DNA from: Synechococcus sp. CBW1107
GTDB taxonomy: Bacteria > Cyanobacteriota > Cyanobacteriia > PCC-6307 > Cyanobiaceae
NCBI RefSeq assembly: GCF_015841355.1
Contig: NZ_CP064908.1
Coordinates: 1,364,001 to 1,428,000 of the forward strand
DNA length: 64,000 nt
Direction of reading: 5' to 3'
The position numbers were made by a program, and so were the translations under genes. Under the pieces are notes generated by a model. That model saw nothing but the letters and a program-made list of their open reading frames with translations. It had not been told where the DNA came from and ran no database searches. This document shows positions 1,903 through 10,250 of the stretch, one piece after another (position 1 is the first letter of the stretch; each line of letters begins with the position of its first letter).

Positions 1903-2418
1903 TCAGGAGGGCGCGGCGCCCGGATGCTGCCAGACGCCGTGACGTCCCCCCGTCTTGCTCAGCAGCCGCACCGGGCCGATGGTCATGGCCGGATCCGCGG
2001 ATTTCACCATGTCGTAGAGGGTGAGCAGGCCCACCTGGACGGCGGTGAGCGCCTCCATCTCCACTCCCGTGGGCCCGGTGGTGCGGGCGGCGGCCTCGAC
2101 GCGCAGACCACGGCCATCGGCGCTGGGCTCGATGCGCACCTCCAGGCCCGTGAGGCCGATGGGGTGGCAGAGGGGGATCAGCTCCCAGGTGCGCTTGGCG
2201 CCCTGGATCGCCCCCACCCGTGCCACCGCCAGCACATCCCCCTTGGGGGCCCGGCCTTCGAGCACCAGCGCCAGCACCTGCGGATCCATGGTGATGAACC
2301 CCTCGGCCACGGCGCGGCGGTCGCTGGCGGGGCGGTCGCCCACCTCCACCATGTGCACCTCACCGCTGGCGTTGAGGTGGCTGAGCCGGCCCGGGACGGA
2401 TTCCATGCCGGCGATCAT
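1903..2418 (-). CDS. moaC: MoaC, cyclic pyranopterin monophosphate synthase
   Basis: Acts with the radical SAM enzyme MoaA on GTP to give cyclic pyranopterin monophosphate. It carries LIPLCHP (80-86), [11 protein letters not shown] (117-127), LYDMVKSAD (134-142) and LLSKTGG (152-158), including the catalytic aspartate and lysine positions known from E. coli MoaC. The protein is 171 residues from the first ATG; a second Met at residue 5 would fit the usual N-terminus slightly better. It follows the DM13 gene by 12 bp and precedes moeA by 13 bp, so the three could share a transcript. moaA is not in the window. Confidence 0.95.
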
Positions 2419-2430
2419 GGCGCTTCAGGC

Positions 2431-2922
2431 TCACTTCTTCATCATCGAATCCTTCTGCATCGCGTCGTTGACCCGGGATCCTTGCTTCAGGGGCGCCCAG
2501 GCCATGGTCGCGTTGAACTTCTGGCACCAGATCAGCACCGACTTCTGCTGGCTCAGATTGATCGAGGCGGGAATCACATAGCTCTGGGCTCCCTTGCTCG
2601 AGCGCAGGGGGGCCAGCACGGTGTAGCTGCCGGCCTTGAGTTCGTACTTGGGAGGCTTGCTCATGGCCAGGGGGGTGGCCGATGGGCTGAAGGCCACCTT
2701 CAGATCGGGGGCGCTGTCGTTGGTCCTGAAATCACTGCTGAGCACGAGCACCTGCCGGCCCGCCTCCTTCTTGATCATGAAGCTGCCACTCACCGGGGCT
2801 TCGGCCTTCTGGAACGTGCCGCCGAGGGCTCCCATCTCGGCGGCCTGGACCGCCAGCATGGTGGAGGCGCCCAGGGCCAGGGCGGCCACGCCGCGGGCAA
2901 AGGTGGACTTGGGGAACAACAT
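2431..2922 (-). CDS. Exported DM13-domain protein
   Basis: A 163-residue protein with an N-terminal signal peptide (about residues 1-27, ending near VQAAE) followed by a DM13 domain. The DM13 pattern is visible as a glycine-rich start (SGSF), a VLVLSSDF strand, DLKVAFSP, and the ending VLIWCQKFNATMAWAPL, which holds the single conserved cysteine. DM13 domains have been proposed to take part in electron transfer outside the cytoplasm, but biochemical evidence is thin. It is divergent from the ECF sigma/anti-sigma pair across a short gap, a setting that suggests it is a target of, or an input to, that regulator. It is also close upstream of moaC. Precise role unknown. Confidence 0.8.
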   Translation of the reverse strand: MLFPKSTFARGVAALALGASTMLAVQAAEMGALGGTFQKAEAPVSGSFMIKKEAGRQVLVLSSDFRTNDSAPDLKVAFSPSATPLAMSKPPKYELKAGSYTVLAPLRSSKGAQSYVIPASINLSQQKSVLIWCQKFNATMAWAPLKQGSRVNDAMQKDSMMKK

Positions 2923-3114
2923 GACGGTCTGGTGGGGGTGTGAGGACGGTGCCAGCCGACGTCCCAGCGGAAACCGTGCGGCACCCCTCCACTACCGGCG
3001 GGGCCAGCGAACGGATTGCCCATCCCGCCCCGCGATGACCAGGGCCCCTCTCAATCCGATCAGGCCTCTCGGCGGTACACCGCGTGTTCCAGCCTGTTCG
3101 GCTCTCCGTTGCGC

Positions 3115-3690
3115 GTGACCACCCCCGAGCCCGACGCCGCCGCACACCCCCAGGGACGTCTCCAGGACCACCGCCCGGCGGGCTACCCCGACCTGGCCGG
3201 CCTGTACGACGCCTGCGGCGCGCCGGTGTTCCGCCTGGCCCTGCGGCTCAGTCCGTCGCGTCAGGAGGCGGAGGACCTCTGCCATGACGTCTTCCTGCGC
3301 TACTGGCAGCAGGGCCGCTATGAGCCGAAGCGCGGACCCGTGCTGGCCTACCTGCTGATGATGACCCGCTCGATGGCGTTCAATCGCATCGAGCAGCGCC
3401 GCAACCGCTGGCAGCTGGTGCAACGCTGGTCGCACCAGCTGTTTCCCTCGGCCGTGCGCAGCCCCCAGGAAGCCGCCGAGGCCGATGACCTCTCCCAGCG
3501 GGTGCGCCTGGCCCTCGAGTCGATCCCCGCCAACCAGCGCCAGGTGCTGGAGATGGCCTACTACGAGGGCCTGAGCCAGTCGGCCATCGCCGAGCGGCTG
3601 CAACTGCCCCTCGGCACGGTGAAGACCCGCTCCCGCCAGGGTCTGATTCGCCTGCGCGACCAGCTGATCGACGACCGCCCGCAACCATGA
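3115..3690 (+). CDS. ECF-type RNA polymerase sigma factor
   Basis: A 191-residue sigma factor from the GTG at 3115; an in-frame upstream start at 3016 would add 33 residues with no sigma character. Region 2 spans about 30-97 (RLSPSRQEAEDLCHDVFLRYW) and region 4 about 128-180 (LESIPANQRQVLEMAYYEG and LPLGTVKTRSRQGL, a helix-turn-helix). Regions 1 and 3 are absent, as in extracytoplasmic-function sigma factors. Its stop overlaps the next start as ATGA, and the next gene is an RskA-like membrane anti-sigma, so the pair should respond to an envelope or periplasmic signal. The arsenosugar genes follow without a break. Confidence 0.92.
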   Translation: MTTPEPDAAAHPQGRLQDHRPAGYPDLAGLYDACGAPVFRLALRLSPSRQEAEDLCHDVFLRYWQQGRYEPKRGPVLAYLLMMTRSMAFNRIEQRRNRWQLVQRWSHQLFPSAVRSPQEAAEADDLSQRVRLALESIPANQRQVLEMAYYEGLSQSAIAERLQLPLGTVKTRSRQGLIRLRDQLIDDRPQP

Positions 3691-4412
3691 GCCGCCACGA
3701 CACCCATCCCCACGGAACCGGACCCGAAGCGGAAGCCGATCTCGACCTGCTGCTGGCGGGCCATGCTCTCGGTGACCTCGACGAGCCGGAGCGCCAGCAG
3801 CTGGCGGCGCTGCTGCAGCAGCAGCCCGAGCTGCGCCAGCGTCTCGATGAGTTCAGCACCACCCTCGAGCTGCTGCCTCTGGCCCTGCCCGCCGCCGTCG
3901 GCCCGCCACAGCACCTGCGCCAGCGCCTGCTGGATCAGCGGGCGCCACAGCGTGGGGTCGGCCCCTGGCTGCTGCCGGCGCTGATGGGCCTGGGCCTGCT
4001 GGTGCTGGGCACCCAGTTGCACCAGACCCGGCAGCAACTGGCCCGGGTGCAGCAGCAGGCCGGCTCCAGCGGCACACTCACTTCGGCGAGCCGCGAGTTG
4101 CCGCTCCAGGCGATCGGGGGCGAGGGCGGCGCCAGCGGCATGGTGCTGGTCACCGGCAATCCCACCCACAACATGCTGATGCTGGATGGTCTGCCGCCGC
4201 CGCCACCCAACACCACCTACCGTCTCTGGGCCCGTGTGAACGGGCGCGAGGTGGGCTGCGTTCCCTTCGTGCCCGACGGCAAGGGTCATGTGGCCATGCC
4301 GATCCCCATCTACCCCACCAGCGCCGCCAGCAGCGTGAGCGTGAGCATCGAATCGCTGGGGGCCCTGGGGGCCCAGCCCGCCGGACGGCGCGTTCTCACC
4401 AGCACGATCTGA
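3687..4412 (+). CDS. RskA-like membrane anti-sigma factor
   Basis: A 241-residue protein with a cytoplasmic N-terminal part, LLLAGHALGDLDEPERQQL (21-39), that resembles the sigma-binding segment of RskA-type anti-sigmas. One membrane span follows at about 93-110 and then a coiled stretch. The exterior domain (about 135-238) has the RskA C-terminal pattern, including GMVLVTGNPTHNMLML and YRLWARVNGREVGCVPF. There is no zinc-binding HxxxCxxC motif. It overlaps the sigma gene by 4 bp, and its stop shares one base with the arsS start (TGATG). It probably sequesters the sigma factor and is released by a signal outside the membrane. Confidence 0.88.
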   Translation: MSRHDTHPHGTGPEAEADLDLLLAGHALGDLDEPERQQLAALLQQQPELRQRLDEFSTTLELLPLALPAAVGPPQHLRQRLLDQRAPQRGVGPWLLPALMGLGLLVLGTQLHQTRQQLARVQQQAGSSGTLTSASRELPLQAIGGEGGASGMVLVTGNPTHNMLMLDGLPPPPPNTTYRLWARVNGREVGCVPFVPDGKGHVAMPIPIYPTSAASSVSVSIESLGALGAQPAGRRVLTSTI

Positions 4413-5461
4413 TGACCACCGAGACGTGGATCACCCCGAGGCCGACCGACCTGACGCCCTCCTCTCTGCGCACCACCGACGGCGGCCCGCCGGATCCGGC
4501 CATGGCCTTTCCGCCCCTGCGCCGCGGCCGCCTGGAGACCCTGCAGGTGAACCTCACCTACCGCTGCAATCAGACCTGCGTGCACTGCCACGTGAACGCC
4601 GGCCCGACCCGCAGCGAAAGCATGGCGGCCGCCACCGTGGCCCTGATCCCCGAGGTGCTGGCCGCCCGGGGTCTGCGTTGCCTCGACCTCACCGGTGGGG
4701 CACCGGAGCTGCACCCTCAGTTCCGGGAACTGGTGCGCCAGGCCCGCGCCCTGGGCGTGGACGTGATCGATCGCTGCAACCTCACGATCCTGCAGGAGCC
4801 GGGCCAGGAGGATCTGGCCGTCTTTCTCGCCGAACAGGGAGTCACCGTGGTGGCCTCGCTGCCCTGCTACCTCCAGGACAACGTGGAGCGCCAGCGGGGC
4901 TCCGGGGTGTTCCAGCGCAGCATCAGCGGCCTGCGCCAGCTCAACGCCCTCGGCTACGGCCAGCCCGGGTCGGGCCTGGAGCTGAACCTGGTGTACAACC
5001 CCCAGGGCGCGGCGCTGCCGCCGGAGCAGGGACCGCTGGAGGCCGACTACCGGAGGGTGCTGGCGGCCGATCACGGCGTGGTGTTCAACCGGCTCTATGC
5101 CCTGGCCAACATGCCGGTCCAGCGCTTCGCGGCGGTGCTGAGGGCCCAGGGGGAGCTGGAGGGCTACCTGGCGTTGCTGCGCCGCAGCCACCGCGACGAC
5201 AACCTGACCCAGGTCATGTGCCGCCAGCTGATCAGCGTCGACTGGCAGGGCTCCCTCTACGACTGCGATTTCAACCAGCAGCTGGGGCTGGCCGCCGCTG
5301 GCGACCCTGCAGCCGTCGCTGAAGCCGGCGGTCGCCGGCGCTCCCACCTGCGCGATCTGCTGCGGCGCGACCCCGCCGGTGACCCGATCCAGGTGGGTGG
5401 GCACTGCTTCGGCTGCACCGCCGGCAGCGGCTCCAGCTGCGGCGGGGCCCTGGCCGCATGA
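4412..5461 (+). CDS. arsS: ArsS, radical SAM enzyme of arsenosugar biosynthesis
   Basis: A 349-residue radical SAM protein. The cluster motif is C52-x3-C56-x2-C59 in TYRCNQTCVHCH. A second set of cysteines near the C-terminus (C332, C335, C343 in HCFGCTAGSGSSC) and C-D-F in LYDCDFNQQ are typical of the ArsS family (older name: DUF3641). ArsS acts on dimethylated arsenic from ArsM and makes the 5'-deoxyadenosyl-arsenical precursor of arsenosugars. The pairing with arsM two genes on supports the assignment over other members of this radical SAM group. Its start overlaps the anti-sigma stop, and its own stop overlaps the next start as ATGA, so translation is probably coupled. Confidence 0.9.
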   Translation: MTTETWITPRPTDLTPSSLRTTDGGPPDPAMAFPPLRRGRLETLQVNLTYRCNQTCVHCHVNAGPTRSESMAAATVALIPEVLAARGLRCLDLTGGAPELHPQFRELVRQARALGVDVIDRCNLTILQEPGQEDLAVFLAEQGVTVVASLPCYLQDNVERQRGSGVFQRSISGLRQLNALGYGQPGSGLELNLVYNPQGAALPPEQGPLEADYRRVLAADHGVVFNRLYALANMPVQRFAAVLRAQGELEGYLALLRRSHRDDNLTQVMCRQLISVDWQGSLYDCDFNQQLGLAAAGDPAAVAEAGGRRRSHLRDLLRRDPAGDPIQVGGHCFGCTAGSGSSCGGALAA

Positions 5462-7665
5462 GCGGGGATTCAGAGGCGCGCGGTCCGCTCGGCGCCAGCC
5501 GCGGGCGCCTGCTGCTTCTCCTGGCGGTGACGGCCCTGGTGACCCTGTTCTTCGTGCTGGATCTGCCCGATCGGCTCAGTCTCGAGAGCCTGCGCCACGC
5601 CCACGGCAGCCTGCTGGCCTGGCGCGAGCGGGCCCCCGTCACCGTGGCGGGTCTGTACGCCCTCGTCTATGTGCTGATCACGGGGCTCTCCCTGCCCGGG
5701 GCGGCGGTGATGACCCTGGCCGGCGGGGCGATCTTCGGGCTGGGACTCGGCACCCTGCTGGTGTCGTTCGCCTCCAGCGCCGGCGCCACCTTCGCCTTCC
5801 TGCTGGCGCGCACCCTGCTGCGGGAGCCGATGCTGAAGCGCTTCGGCCCCCGCCTGGCCCCGATCGAAGCTGGGCTGCGCCGCGATGGAGTGCTCTACCT
5901 CCTCAGCCTGCGGCTGGTGCCGGTGTTTCCCTTCTTCCTGGTGAACGTGGTGATGGGGCTGACCCCGATCCCCACCCTTTCCTTTTATGTCACCAGCCAG
6001 ATCGGCATGCTGCCCGGCACCCTCGTGTATGTGAACGCCGGCACGCAGCTGGCCCAGCTGCGCAGCCTCGACGGCATCCTCACGCCGCCGCTGCTGCTGT
6101 CGCTGGCGCTGCTGGGGGCCTTCCCCTGGATCGCACGGCTGGCCCTGGAGCGCTGGAAGCTCTGGCGGCTCTACCGCCCCTGGACGAAGCCGGCCCGCTT
6201 CGATCGCAACCTGATCGTGATCGGTGCCGGTGCAGCGGGCCTGGTCACGGCCTACATCGCCGCCGCCGTGAAGGCGAAGGTGACCCTGATCGAAGCCGAG
6301 CGCATGGGCGGCGACTGCCTCAACACCGGCTGCGTCCCCAGCAAGGCCCTGATCGCCACGGCCCGGGCGGCGGCGCGCCTGCGCCAGGCCGATCGCTACG
6401 GCCTCGAACCCCACGAGCCCGTCGTGTCGCTGCCGCAGGTGCTGGAGCGGGTGTTCGCCAAGGTGGCGGCGGTGGCCCCCCATGACAGCGTCGAGCGCTA
6501 CGAGGGATTGGGGGTGGAGGTGCTGCGCGGCCATGGCCGCCTGATCGATCCCTGGACGGTGGCGATCAGCGGAGGCGATGGCCGGGAGCAACGGCTCACG
6601 GCGCCGGCGATCGTGCTGGCCACGGGAGCCAGCCCGGCGCTGCCGGATCTGCCAGGGGCCGAGACGGTCGGTCTGCTCACCAGTGAAACGGTCTGGCAGG
6701 CCCTGAGGGATTGCCCCCTGGCCTCACCGCGGATCGTGGTGATGGGGGGTGGTCCGATCGGTTGTGAACTCTCCCAGGCTCTGGCCCGTCTGGGCGCACG
6801 GGTCACCCTGCTGCAGCGGGGCCCGCAGCTGCTCAGCCGCGAGGACCCCGACGCGGCCGCCCTGGTGCGCCAGGCCCTCGAGGCCGACGGCGTGCGGGTG
6901 CTCACCCAGTGCACGGTGCAGGGCTTCGAGCCCCGCCTGGCGGCGAAGGCGGTGCTGATCACCACCGGCGGCCCCGAGGCCTCCGAGCCCTCGGAGCTGC
7001 TCTGTGATCAGGTGCTCTGCGCCATCGGCCGCCGGGCACGCCTGGAGGGCTACGGCCTCGAGGAGCTGGGGATCCCCACGGGCCGCACCATCGACACCAA
7101 CGCCTCCCTTCAGACGCTGTTTCCCAACATCTATGCCGCCGGTGATGTGGCCGGCCCCTGGCAGTTCACCCACACCGCCGCCCACCAGGCCTGGTACGCC
7201 GCCGTGAACGCCCTGTTCGGCCCCTTCCGCCGTTTCCGCGTCGACGGGCGGGTGATTCCCCGCACCACCTTCACCGATCCGGAGGTGGCGGGGGTGGGTC
7301 TGAGCGAACGGGAGGCCGCCCGCCAGGGGGTGGCGGTGGAGGTGACCCGCTTCCCCCTGCATGAGCTCGATCGGGCGATCGTGGAGAGCGCCGAAACCGG
7401 CTACGTGAAGGTGCTCACGCCTCCAGGCAGCGACCGCCTGCTGGGGGTGTGCATCGTGGGTGAGCAGGCCGGTGAACTGCTCGCCGAGTTCGTGCTGGCC
7501 ATGCGCTGGCGCCTGGGACTCGGCAAGATCCTCTCCACCATCCACGCCTACCCCACCCTCTCGGAAGCCAACAAATACGCCGCCGGGGCCTGGAAACGGG
7601 CCCACGCCCCCCAGCGCGTCCTGGCGCTGCTGCAACGCTTCCACAGCTGGCGCCGGGGCCATTGA
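5458..7665 (+). CDS. TVP38/TMEM64 membrane domain fused to a MerA-like FAD disulfide reductase
   Basis: A 735-residue two-part protein. Residues 1 to about 235 form a TVP38/TMEM64 (VTT/DedA-like) membrane domain with roughly five hydrophobic segments and the signature RLVPVFPFFLVNVVMGL. From about residue 250 it is a pyridine nucleotide-disulfide oxidoreductase of the mercuric reductase/lipoamide dehydrogenase group. This part has the FAD motif VIGAGAAG, the redox pair C287/C292 in GGDCLNTGCVPSK, the NAD(P)H motif VMGGGPIGCE, YAAGDVAG, and the dimerisation domain ending in HAYPTLSEA. It lacks the C-terminal Cys-Cys pair of true MerA. Lying between arsS and arsM, it may supply reducing power or handle arsenic or thiol species at the membrane; that is inference. 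Such fusions exist in other cyanobacteria. Confidence 0.88.
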   Translation: MSGDSEARGPLGASRGRLLLLLAVTALVTLFFVLDLPDRLSLESLRHAHGSLLAWRERAPVTVAGLYALVYVLITGLSLPGAAVMTLAGGAIFGLGLGTLLVSFASSAGATFAFLLARTLLREPMLKRFGPRLAPIEAGLRRDGVLYLLSLRLVPVFPFFLVNVVMGLTPIPTLSFYVTSQIGMLPGTLVYVNAGTQLAQLRSLDGILTPPLLLSLALLGAFPWIARLALERWKLWRLYRPWTKPARFDRNLIVIGAGAAGLVTAYIAAAVKAKVTLIEAERMGGDCLNTGCVPSKALIATARAAARLRQADRYGLEPHEPVVSLPQVLERVFAKVAAVAPHDSVERYEGLGVEVLRGHGRLIDPWTVAISGGDGREQRLTAPAIVLATGASPALPDLPGAETVGLLTSETVWQALRDCPLASPRIVVMGGGPIGCELSQALARLGARVTLLQRGPQLLSREDPDAAALVRQALEADGVRVLTQCTVQGFEPRLAAKAVLITTGGPEASEPSELLCDQVLCAIGRRARLEGYGLEELGIPTGRTIDTNASLQTLFPNIYAAGDVAGPWQFTHTAAHQAWYAAVNALFGPFRRFRVDGRVIPRTTFTDPEVAGVGLSEREAARQGVAVEVTRFPLHELDRAIVESAETGYVKVLTPPGSDRLLGVCIVGEQAGELLAEFVLAMRWRLGLGKILSTIHAYPTLSEANKYAAGAWKRAHAPQRVLALLQRFHSWRRGH

Positions 7666-7708
7666 CCCCAGCATCGACCCCCTCCGCCGCGTCCACTCCC
7701 GTATCGAG

Positions 7709-8806
7709 ATGACCGCATCACCACCGAGCACGGGCGTTCGTGAAGCCGTGCAGACCTATTACGGCAGCACCCTGGCCAGCAGCGCCGACCTGCGCACCAG
7801 CGCCTGCTGCGACGCCAGCGCGGTGCCCGCCGCCCTCAGGCCCCTGCTGGGCCGCCTCCATCCCGAGGTGCTCGCCCGCTACTACGGCTGCGGCCTGGTC
7901 TGTCCGCCCCTGCTGGAGGGCGCACGGGTGCTGGATCTGGGCTGCGGCAGCGGCCGTGACGCCTATCTGCTGGCCCAGCTGGTGGGGCCCACAGGCGCTG
8001 TGGTGGGGGTCGACATGACGGCCGAGCAGCTGGCGGTGGCCGAAGCCCACCGCGCCTTTCACGCCGAGTGCTTCGGCTACGACAACGTGCGCTTTCTGGA
8101 GGGCTACATCGAGGACCTGGAGCAGCTCGACCTGGAGCCAGGCAGCTTCGATGTGGTGATCTCCAACTGCGTGGTGAATCTCTCCACCGACAAGCTGGCG
8201 GTCCTGCGCGGCGTGCGGCGGTTGCTCAGGCCGGGAGGGGAGTTCTACTTCGCCGATGTCTACGCCGACCGGCGGGTGCCCCAGGCCCTGCAGGCCGACC
8301 CGGTGCTCTACGGCGAGTGCCTCAGCGGTGCCCTCTACTGGAACGATTTCCTGCGTCTGGCCCGCCAGGCGGGCTTCGCCGATCCGCGCCTGGTGCACGA
8401 TCGCCCTCTGGAGATCACCGACCCGGAACTGGCGGAGCGCACCGGTGAGCTGCGCTTCTTCTCCGCCACCTACCGGCTGTTCCGGATCGACGAGCTCGAG
8501 GATGCCTGTGAGGACCACGGCCAGGCCGTGATCTACAGGGGCACGATCCCCGGCCACCCCCACCGCCTCGACTTCGACAAGCACCACAGCCTGGACACGG
8601 GCCGGGTGTTTCCCGTCTGCGGCAACACCTTCCGGATGCTCCACCAGAGCCGGCTGGCGCCCCATCTCGACTTCATCGGCGCCGACTCCAGCGCCCACTT
8701 CGGCCTCTTCCCAGGCTGCGGCAGCGTGATGCCCTTCACAGCCGAAGTCCCCGCTGGTGTCAACGGCGCCACGCCAGCAGCGACAGGGTCCGCCTCCTGC
8801 TGTTGA
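7709..8806 (+). CDS. arsM: ArsM, arsenite S-adenosylmethionine methyltransferase
   Basis: A 365-residue class I methyltransferase that methylates trivalent arsenic stepwise. The SAM motif is VLDLGCGSGRD (74-84). The arsenic-binding cysteines of the family are present as C33/C34 (SACC), C154 (ISNCVVNLS) and C204 (GECLSGALY). The 50-residue spacing of the last two equals that of C174/C224 in the characterised algal CmArsM. The C-terminal domain carries further cysteines and the protein ends in Cys-Cys. The ATG at 7709 is chosen because upstream in-frame sequence is inside the preceding gene and lacks family character. It sits 43 bp after the fusion flavoprotein, with arsS upstream, giving a complete methylation-to-arsenosugar pair. 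Confidence 0.93.
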   Translation: MTASPPSTGVREAVQTYYGSTLASSADLRTSACCDASAVPAALRPLLGRLHPEVLARYYGCGLVCPPLLEGARVLDLGCGSGRDAYLLAQLVGPTGAVVGVDMTAEQLAVAEAHRAFHAECFGYDNVRFLEGYIEDLEQLDLEPGSFDVVISNCVVNLSTDKLAVLRGVRRLLRPGGEFYFADVYADRRVPQALQADPVLYGECLSGALYWNDFLRLARQAGFADPRLVHDRPLEITDPELAERTGELRFFSATYRLFRIDELEDACEDHGQAVIYRGTIPGHPHRLDFDKHHSLDTGRVFPVCGNTFRMLHQSRLAPHLDFIGADSSAHFGLFPGCGSVMPFTAEVPAGVNGATPAATGSASCC

Positions 8807-8993
8807 GGGCCTCGCTGCTGGTGGTGGCTGGCCAGATCCGAGCGAGCAGAAGGGGAGCGACCCCAGGCCGGGGGCACAAGCCCCTCGATAGCCGGGAATC
8901 AGCGCCTGCAGGCAGGAGGCGGAGACTCCTCGGTCGGCTTCGGCTCTTGAGACCCCCCATGGGAAGGTAACGGCTCTGTCGCGGGTCGCCGCC

Positions 8994-10250
8994 ATGGGCT
9001 GGACTCGCCCCTCCACGCGGTTCTGCATCTTCCTGACGCTGCTCAACGACCGTCTGGGGGAGAGCATCGTCTTTCCCCTGCTGCCATTCCTGCTGGCGAG
9101 TTTCACCAGTGGTGGACGCACCCTGGGGCTGCTGGCGGGCAGCTACGCCCTGGCCCAGTTCCTGTTCACCCCCCTGATCGGTGCCCTCAGCGACCGCTAC
9201 GGGCGCAAGCCGGTGATTGCCGGCTGCGTGGCCGGCTCGGTGCTGGGCCTGGGCGGTTTTGCCCTGACCCTGGCCGTGCCCTGGCCGGCGGGCAGCTCCT
9301 GGCCCCTGCCGCTGCTCTTCGGCGCCCGGCTGATCGATGGGGTGAGCGGTGGGACGGCCGCCACCGCCGGCGCGGTGCTGGCCGACATCAGCCCTCCTGA
9401 GAAGCGGGCCAAGGCCTTCGGGCTGATCGGCGTGGCCTTCGGGCTGGGGTTCATCCTCGGGCCGGCCCTGGGGGGGCTGCTGGCGGGGGTGAGTGTGACC
9501 CTGCCACTGCTGCTGGCGGTGGCGGTGGCGGCCGTGAACCTGGTGCTGGTGCTCACGGTGCTGCCGGAAACCCATCCCCCGGCCGCGCGCCTGGCCCTGC
9601 CCCGCAAGCGGGAGCTCAATCCGCTCACCCAGCTGATGCGGGTGTTCCGCAACCCCCGGGTTCGACGGCTCAGCCTGGCCTTCTTTCTGTTCTTTCTGGG
9701 CTTCAACGGCTTCACGGCCGTGCTGGTGCTCTATTTCAAACAGGTGTTCGGCTGGGGGCCGGAGCTGGCGGCCATGGCCTTCCTGGTGGTGGGCGTGGTG
9801 GCCACGGTGGTGCAGGGCGGCCTGATCGGACCGCTGGTGCAACGTTTCGGCGAAGGGCGCCTCAGCCTGGCCGGCCTGGGGCTGGTGGTCGTGGGCTGCC
9901 TGCTGATTCCCCTGGCCACGGAGGCCACGGCTCTGCCGGTGGTGTTCACCGCCCTGCCCCTGCTGGCCTGCGGCACCGGACTGGTCACCCCCTGCCTGCG
10001 CAGCCAGGTGTCGCGCCGGCTGGATGACAGCGGCCAGGGAGCGGCCCTGGGCAGCCTGCAGGGCCTGCAGAGCCTGGGCAGTTTCATCGGCCCGCCCCTG
10101 GCTGGCCTGGCCTATGACCTGGTGGGCAGGACCAGCCCCTTCTGGACCGGCATCGCCCTGTTCCTGGTGGTGGCCCTGCTGGTGGCAGGAGGTGGCCCCC
10201 TCAGCAGCCCCTCGACAAGCAAGCCCGCGACAGTGCCCCCCGGCCCTTGA
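8994..10250 (+). CDS. MFS transporter, drug/metabolite exporter type
   Basis: A 418-residue protein with about 12 hydrophobic segments. The major facilitator loop 2-3 motif is visible as GALSDRYGRKP, and a motif-C-like glycine-rich helix as GVAFGLGFILGPALGG (segment 5), which marks antiporters of the TetA-like drug:H+ group. The substrate is unknown. It lies 187 bp after arsM, with a gap that may hold its own promoter, and 29 bp before ppk1. Export of an arsenic compound is possible from its position but not shown by the sequence. Confidence 0.85.
   Translation: MGWTRPSTRFCIFLTLLNDRLGESIVFPLLPFLLASFTSGGRTLGLLAGSYALAQFLFTPLIGALSDRYGRKPVIAGCVAGSVLGLGGFALTLAVPWPAGSSWPLPLLFGARLIDGVSGGTAATAGAVLADISPPEKRAKAFGLIGVAFGLGFILGPALGGLLAGVSVTLPLLLAVAVAAVNLVLVLTVLPETHPPAARLALPRKRELNPLTQLMRVFRNPRVRRLSLAFFLFFLGFNGFTAVLVLYFKQVFGWGPELAAMAFLVVGVVATVVQGGLIGPLVQRFGEGRLSLAGLGLVVVGCLLIPLATEATALPVVFTALPLLACGTGLVTPCLRSQVSRRLDDSGQGAALGSLQGLQSLGSFIGPPLAGLAYDLVGRTSPFWTGIALFLVVALLVAGGGPLSSPSTSKPATVPPGP

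Follow-up and report, generated by a model that had tools for sequence, protein, structure and literature searches.

A SigK/RskA-type sigma factor pair as the predicted switch for arsenosugar genes in Synechococcus sp. CBW1107

It is an old question of the field why phototrophs produce arsenosugars and what switches their synthesis on. In Synechococcus sp. CBW1107 (genome of 3.2 Mb in a single contig), the arsenosugar genes stand directly behind genes for an extracytoplasmic function (ECF) sigma factor and its anti-sigma factor, in a 64-kb stretch of the genome that we will call the window. Does this sigma factor control the pathway, and to which signal would it answer? We propose that the pair is of the SigK/RskA type and that it controls arsenosugar synthesis in response to an envelope signal, most likely periplasmic thiol, redox or metal stress; from the sequence evidence, we give this reading a probability of roughly 0.75. 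Control of the arsenosugar genes by the sigma factor itself is very probable, and for envelope redox or thiols as the kind of signal the balance tips slightly in favor. A signal at the envelope, and not the usual sensor of arsenic, would probably switch the pathway on.

An operon of five genes behind two divergent promoter motifs

As described in the first-pass annotation of this DNA, five genes lie on one strand in the order sigma factor, RskA-like anti-sigma factor, arsS, TVP38-flavoprotein and arsM; the sequence, its open reading frames, and family searches bear this out. The unit extends just beyond positions 3115-8806, to which it had been assigned: a divergent gene for a DM13-domain protein and two divergent copies of a promoter motif also belong to it. 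Its features are:

3115..3690, + strand: ECF sigma gene, SigK-like (GTG start; Sigma70_r2/r4; best solved-structure match SigK 4nqw)
3687..4412, + strand: RskA-type anti-sigma gene (ATG start; PF10099 above cut-off)
4412..5461, + strand: arsS, arsenosugar biosynthesis radical SAM protein (ATG start; TIGR04167)
5458..7665, + strand: fusion of VTT (TVP38) and pyridine nucleotide-disulphide oxidoreductase, here "the fusion" (ATG start; VTT_dom, Pyr_redox_2, Pyr_redox_dim)
7709..8806, + strand: arsM-like methyltransferase gene (ATG start; ArsM-like family match)
2431..2922, - strand: DM13-domain protein, divergent partner gene (PF10517)
3052..3077, + strand: predicted ECF promoter CAATCCGATCAGGCCTCTCGGCGGTA for the sigma operon (motif comparison; the -10 element ends 37 nt before the GTG)
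2993..3018, - strand: predicted ECF promoter CAATCCGTTCGCTGGCCCCGCCGGTA for the DM13 gene (motif comparison)

The junctions are also as annotated: ATGA between the sigma and anti-sigma genes (4-nt overlap), TGATG between the anti-sigma gene and arsS (1-nt overlap), ATGA between arsS and the fusion, and then a 43-nt gap to arsM. We place the start of the sigma gene at the GTG at 3115 because it follows the motif at 3052-3077, while an alternative TTG at 3016 precedes it.

The motif emerged from a comparison of the intergenic stretches between DM13 and sigma genes, where it has the form CAATCCGATC-N7-TCR-N-CGGTA, with fixed spacing and reading both ways. At this locus, the predicted ECF promoter CAATCCGAT-N12-CGGTA is present in two divergent copies between the sigma gene and the DM13 gene, and the 64 kb of the window contain exactly these 2 copies of the motif core. 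We searched the whole genome with the pattern CMATCCGWW-N12-CGGTA and, as a control, with the same pattern backwards. There were 2 exact matches, both of them the DM13/sigma sites. With one mismatch allowed, 3 more sites appeared, and the backwards pattern likewise gave 3. Just two exact matches in the genome implies that the predicted regulon here is the DM13 gene plus the sigma operon, that is, the arsenosugar genes. (A -35 element of SigK is CCATCC.)

We saw no separate promoter where the anti-sigma gene adjoins arsS, neither one of the sigma-70 type nor one with the ECF motif (ArsR operators were outside this search). A simple consensus scan of positions 2400-9100 showed no sigma-70-type promoter, which is weak evidence since 0.3 would be expected by chance. 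The scan also found one terminator-like site in this stretch, inside arsS and not at a junction. As neither was seen there, we rejected a sigma-70-type promoter or a terminator at the operon junctions.

In the mechanism that we propose, the membrane-spanning anti-sigma factor would hold the sigma factor until a signal across the membrane releases it, and the released sigma factor would bind and start transcription at CAATCCGAT-N12-CGGTA. In this genome, the predicted sites stand only before the sigma-anti-sigma-arsS-TVP38-flavoprotein-arsM operon and before the DM13 gene. ArsM would methylate arsenite, ArsS would add an adenosyl-derived group, and the TVP38-flavoprotein may have some redox or membrane role.

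The motif follows the sigma factor across the family and precedes arsenosugar genes in other gene orders

Our sample of the family comprised 161 genomes (genome labels begin with G and locus labels with L), with the sigma factor counted at E of 1e-20 or better and the anti-sigma factor at E of 1e-6 or better. By these thresholds, the sigma factor is present in 45 of the 161 genomes and the anti-sigma factor in 44; arsS is present in 157. The exact motif pattern is nearly restricted to sigma-bearing genomes: it occurs in 38 of the other 44 and in 1 of 44 sigma-lacking genomes chosen from 116 (Fisher p = 4e-17, uncorrected for kinship). The lone site among the latter has no recognized gene behind it. 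The sigma-bearing set contains 79 exact sites, versus 6 for the backwards control pattern. We also built a motif matrix from sites ahead of sigma or DM13 genes, 55 in all and 53 of them distinct; one, in G102, is 1.96 kb from the sigma gene. At a score of at least 18, the matrix matched 90 times in the fetched loci (1.80 million positions) and never in simulated sequence (3.6 million positions); the loci had been picked for their sigma or arsS genes, and the 90 matches include many training sites. Six sigma-bearing genomes lack an exact site. In three of them, a near match precedes the sigma gene (G078, score 30.7; G149, 29.4; and G037, 13.9), and the other three (G053, G076, and G133) encode a distant sigma factor (40-45 percent identity).

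Which genes lie behind the motif? With labels taken from genes met earlier in the analysis, the first recognized gene after 80 distinct exact sites was sigma (25 sites), DM13 (22), arsS (6), a BcsA-like gene (4), the fusion (3), a GT2 gene (3), MsrA (3), DUF6969 (3), a TIGR04283-type glycosyltransferase (2, one of them tested against the model), a low-molecular-weight (LMW) ArsC-like gene (2), a thioredoxin-like gene (2), or a bufferin maturase (1); 4 sites had none. In six genomes of a single genus, all with a sigma/anti-sigma pair unlinked to arsS (G066, G087, G102, G115, G138, and G156), the motif directly precedes arsS (scores 21.9 to 27.4). Five of these also have it before the fusion gene (15.4 to 21.8); in G087 the fusion lies outside the fetched stretch. 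DUF547 genes also follow the motif: the scores are 18.4 to 21.0 in five linked genomes and lower, 7.7 to 14.0, in five unlinked genomes. The exact pattern is found before GT2 genes in G094, G051, and G096, and the exact core before the glycosyltransferase operon of WH 5701, CS-1329, and BSA11S. The motif also precedes a TIGR04283 arsenosugar glycosyltransferase gene in G060 (260/182 bits) and its 75-percent-identical relative in G099, as well as LMW ArsC-like genes in G026 and G055. Because the motif is found before arsenosugar genes in genomes with other gene orders, it supports ECF control independently of gene order.

Other motif-bearing genes are noted in their own right. In G060 (L234:3118-5218), the motif precedes a pair of bufferin maturase (NF050167, 368/310 bits) and DUF2063 genes, a possible link of the sigma factor to copper handling. 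A BcsA-like glycosyltransferase gene is behind the motif in G032, G096, G083, and G099 (L223/L246, L231, L236, and L237), and the G032 protein ends in DUF427. A DUF6969 gene begins roughly 210-240 nt after the motif in three genomes of one genus (L214, L215, and L218).

The encoded proteins

The sigma protein (191 amino acids) matches Sigma70_r2 and Sigma70_r4 above the cut-off (49.9, 51.4, and 48.7 bits) and has no match to region 3, as expected for an ECF sigma factor. Its closest solved relative is SigK (4nqw, E = 1.5e-15). It does not reach the curated SigK model NF007228 (105.8 vs. 226 bits), so it may work like SigK-RskA, yet it is not filed as SigK. Its only cysteines, Cys34 and Cys56 (positions unmapped onto SigK), are each present in 10 of 20 linked copies; SigK has a cysteine pair at positions 133 and 183, according to PMC7509140.

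The anti-sigma protein matches RskA_C (PF10099) at 40.1 bits, against a cut-off of 29.4. Its predicted structure, of moderate confidence (mean pLDDT 75.6), has helices within residues 13-82, a long helix at 96-125 that is likely the membrane span, and strands within 136-239. As modeled, this arrangement of an N-terminal helical part, one long helix, and a C-terminal beta domain fits the RskA layout and places the pair in the SigK/RskA type. A sequence search of solved structures with the anti-sigma factor gave nothing meaningful (two matches, E = 0.28). We considered whether arsenic-binding cysteines might mark the linked anti-sigma factors and rejected this, as aligned copies have one conserved cysteine, whether linked or unlinked: the single Cys191 is kept in 20/20 linked and 26/26 unlinked copies.

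ArsS scores 433 bits against TIGR04167 (equivalog cut-off 300), and its CxxxCxxC cluster (C52, C56, and C59) is kept in all 80 relatives compared. The fusion combines VTT_dom, Pyr_redox_2, and Pyr_redox_dim domains; we also considered the mercuric reductase MerA for it, but it misses the cut-off of TIGR02053 (340.2 vs. 454.45 bits). In the ArsM-like protein, five cysteines (C33, C34, C61, C154, and C204) are kept in 33/33 relatives compared. The DM13 protein matches PF10517 (70.3 vs. 25 bits) and, judged by eye, has a signal-like N-terminal stretch.

Linkage of the sigma factor to arsS is lineage-specific

By coordinates, the sigma, anti-sigma, and arsS genes are adjacent in 20 of the 161 family genomes, so the order is not confined to this strain, and we rejected chance adjacency. 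Taking the nearest start codon, the sigma and anti-sigma genes overlap in 20/20 linked genomes, arsS starts -44 to +39 nt from the anti-sigma stop, and the TGATG join is found in this strain only. The closest arsS records include Synechococcus sp. WH 5701, CS-1329, and BSA11S; WH 5701 shares the gene order of this strain. G123 and G153 each carry two pairs, one linked to arsS and one not.

A divergent DM13 gene lies within about 3.2 kb upstream of the pair at 32 of 47 sigma loci (10/20 linked and 22/27 unlinked). Neighbors of the unlinked pairs include an EamA transporter, DUF4079, a DipZ-like thiol-disulphide protein, MsrA, an MsrP-like protein, and a ChrR-type cupin (one representative tested per cluster). 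In G034 and G061, which are unlinked, moaC-moeA is close to the pair and DM13, as it is in the window, but three additional genes intervene; these 13-kb loci have no match to arsS, the fusion, or arsM. This layout suggests that the sigma/DM13 unit came first and that the arsenic genes were later placed downstream of it.

In a tree of the sigma and anti-sigma proteins, the linked genomes fall in three groups, which requires 3 changes of the linkage label. The arsS tree requires 5 changes, 3 of them forced by well-supported branches (quick method, no bootstrap). As both trees need at least 3 changes and group the linked genomes differently, we rejected a single origin of the linkage followed by plain inheritance. 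Several changes on both trees imply that the coupling was gained or lost several times, in proportions that such trees cannot tell apart. Coupling of the sigma factor to the arsenosugar genes is lineage-specific: the motif is missing before arsS in 17 of 23 genomes with an unlinked sigma factor. Outside the family sample, 186 of 290 genomes of the class have a sigma match (six of these are in the family). At the 26 best outside-family sigma loci, with 1.5-kb flanks, the anti-sigma gene follows in 26/26, and neither arsS nor the exact motif core was found.

Two observations concern the pair itself. In six loci of genus g6 (L144, L146, L147, L149, L150, and L151), a ChrR-type double-cupin gene, a possible second regulator, lies beside the sigma gene or the pair (the domain was tested on one). 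G134 has an 82-residue C-terminal remnant of the anti-sigma factor before arsS (L036, L132) and a full pair elsewhere in its genome.

What kind of signal?

The first-pass annotation proposed an envelope signal acting through the ECF sigma factor. Control by the sigma factor is well supported by the motif evidence that does not depend on gene order; the kind of signal is a conjecture from the layout of the anti-sigma factor and from the other genes with the motif. We favor periplasmic thiol, redox, or metal stress because the anti-sigma factor is of the membrane-bound SigK/RskA type and because MsrA, thioredoxin-like, bufferin maturase, and DM13 genes carry the motif. The motif-bearing thioredoxin-like genes are followed, as judged by eye, by a DsbD-like gene. 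Unlike DM13, the MsrA, thioredoxin-like, and bufferin maturase genes with the motif are each found in one to three genomes. Together with the BufB/DUF2063 genes, they resemble, in relatives of this strain, the ECF-controlled oxidative or metal envelope responses (MsrA and bufferin operons). Known responses of that sort use other types of sigma and anti-sigma factors. A broader idea, which we hold tentatively and think improbable, is that arsenosugar synthesis is an output of a periplasmic thiol and oxidative-stress response, a form of envelope protection repeatedly recruited under one SigK/RskA-type sigma factor, beyond arsenic disposal.

The first rival reading, which we also think improbable, keeps the same ECF sigma factor but takes arsenic outside the cytoplasm as the signal: in its trivalent form, it would act on periplasmic thiols or on the part of the anti-sigma factor that faces the periplasm, so that the pair would be a new type of arsenic sensor. 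Arsenite is thiol-reactive, and arsenate-reductase-like and arsenosugar glycosyltransferase genes carry the motif besides arsS. However, the single cysteine of the anti-sigma factor is as conserved in copies unlinked to arsS as in linked ones, the arsR-acr3-arsJ locus of this genome (described below) lacks the exact core, and the MsrA, thioredoxin-like, bufferin maturase, and BcsA-like genes behind the motif are not arsenic genes.

The mycobacterial SigK-RskA system is the nearest comparison. According to three papers (PMC10540498, PMC9861118, and PMC7509140), it consists of an mpt83-sigK-rskA cassette with a regulon of mpt83, dipZ, and mpt70; the first two call the stimuli obscure and the regulon is very small. 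Our system is similar in its closest solved sigma factor, its RskA_C anti-sigma factor, its very small regulon, the placement of its promoter sites (before a handful of genes besides the sigma locus), and the secreted-protein partner gene beside the pair. Also, a DsbD_TM-thioredoxin cluster (which we label DipZ-like) lies near many unlinked cyanobacterial pairs, as dipZ is in the SigK-RskA regulon. In contrast, DM13 takes the place of mpt83 as partner gene here, arsenosugar genes are among those that carry the motif, and the sigma factor does not reach the NCBIfam model for SigK.

Evidence against ECF control and the remaining alternatives

Several observations weigh against control by an envelope-responsive sigma factor. 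Since arsS is present in 157 of the 161 genomes and the sigma factor in 45, the pathway does not need this switch. Among 23 genomes with an unlinked sigma factor and a fetched arsS, 17 show no motif before arsS (these include three with a distant sigma factor and several with a distant arsS; G071 and G092, where the DNA upstream of arsS was unfetched, are outside the 23). G077, G083, and G134 have an arsS of the window's lineage without a linked pair and without the motif before it. All six sites before arsS come from one genus and may represent one event, and a seventh genome of that genus, G005, has no site. Within the genus, the motif precedes arsS in 6/7 sigma-bearing and 0/3 sigma-lacking genomes, which is not a clean test because the three sigma-lacking genomes carry another lineage of arsS. 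G127, a genome without this sigma factor, has a motif-like match of score 19.0 (L174, minus 12430). Among the proteins, the model of the anti-sigma factor has no structural match in the PDB at E of 0.001 or less, and the ArsM-like protein is under all the curated arsenite-methyltransferase cut-offs listed (best PRK11873, 165.7/263; NF038099, 88.6/400), as the ArsC-like proteins are under theirs.

Some of these observations would also fit a reading in which the arsenic genes are passengers, behind a sigma operon that regulates itself and has nothing to do with them; they would be transcribed by read-through or from a promoter that escaped detection, with no functional coupling. The adjacency is confined to 20 of the 161 genomes, and both the 17 unlinked genomes and the trio that keeps arsS without pair or motif are as passengers would leave them. 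We nevertheless consider this very unlikely: elsewhere in genomes, the motif stands before arsS, fusion, glycosyltransferase, DUF547, and ArsC-like genes, and the linkage, which needs 3 or more changes on each of the two trees, either arose anew or was lost more than once.

Least probable of all is that arsS-arsM expression is set by the ArsR encoded beside acr3, with the ECF promoter adding little, for although the same genome has that gene and four more ArsR-family matches elsewhere, and an earlier report cited in PMC4010505 had arsenic inducing arsM in Synechocystis, we found no second promoter before arsS (in scans that did not cover ArsR operators), and PMC4010505 itself states that Synechocystis arsM was not induced by arsenite or arsenate in any strain analyzed.

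The ordinary arsenic genes of the genome

That the window lacks arsR, acr3, and arsC was borne out by genome-wide family matches and a search of the window (arsB was not searched). The genome has five ArsR-family matches (the strongest beside acr3), one full acr3, and one PF03960 ArsC, all outside the window. None of the five ArsR-family matches is in or beside the arsenosugar operon, and the ArsR, Acr3, ArsJ, and an LMW ArsC-like protein of this genome had no match within the window. About 250 kb away, at about 1.11 Mb, acr3 directly follows an ArsR-family gene, and a GAPDH-like gene (judged by eye) and arsJ (588/400 bits) diverge from these two:

L229:3784-7471, corresponding to G000:C1 about 1110783-1114470: arsR-acr3 / GAPDH-like-arsJ locus

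This stretch (13.5 kb) has no exact motif core. Thus, the contrast with ArsR drawn in the first-pass annotation stands for the operon, which has no ArsR gene, but not for the genome, which has both systems. Like the ArsR-controlled arsR-acr3 and gapdh-arsJ operons, the arsenosugar operon contains arsenic detoxification genes; unlike them, it has a predicted ECF promoter in place of an ArsR gene. If our proposal is true, a cell can tie its arsenic chemistry to envelope sensing and still retain an ordinary arsR-acr3 locus to export arsenite.

The arsenosugar genes themselves resemble mostly proteobacterial clusters of arsS, TVP38-flavoprotein, and arsM. Of 65 other arsS loci, most of them from proteobacteria and a few from cyanobacteria, 35 have the same fusion gene immediately behind arsS and 27 contain an arsM match. 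Here, unlike in those clusters, the sigma/anti-sigma pair stands before arsS: a search of 72 other arsS loci with profiles built from the family found no anti-sigma factor and one weak sigma match (E = 1e-4). Both halves of the system, the ECF pair and the arsenosugar genes, are of known kinds. In the titles and abstract openings of the open-licence literature, we found neither their union nor a report of ECF control of arsenosugar genes, which is a weak negative. The trigger of the pathway becomes testable, since a promoter motif and a switch can now be named and some genomes have this switch while others lack it.

A search of this genome without a positive control found no homolog of the mannosyltransferase-like gene from the WH 5701 cluster; the final steps of the pathway may therefore be different here. 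Two relatives with the arsenosugar cluster have acr3 matches in separate pieces (G144:C9:416098-421076 and G134:C8:11362-12349). Behind arsM, a TetA-like MFS gene (8994-10250) adjoins ppk in the window and in relatives; there is no motif before it in the window, and we excluded it from the unit.

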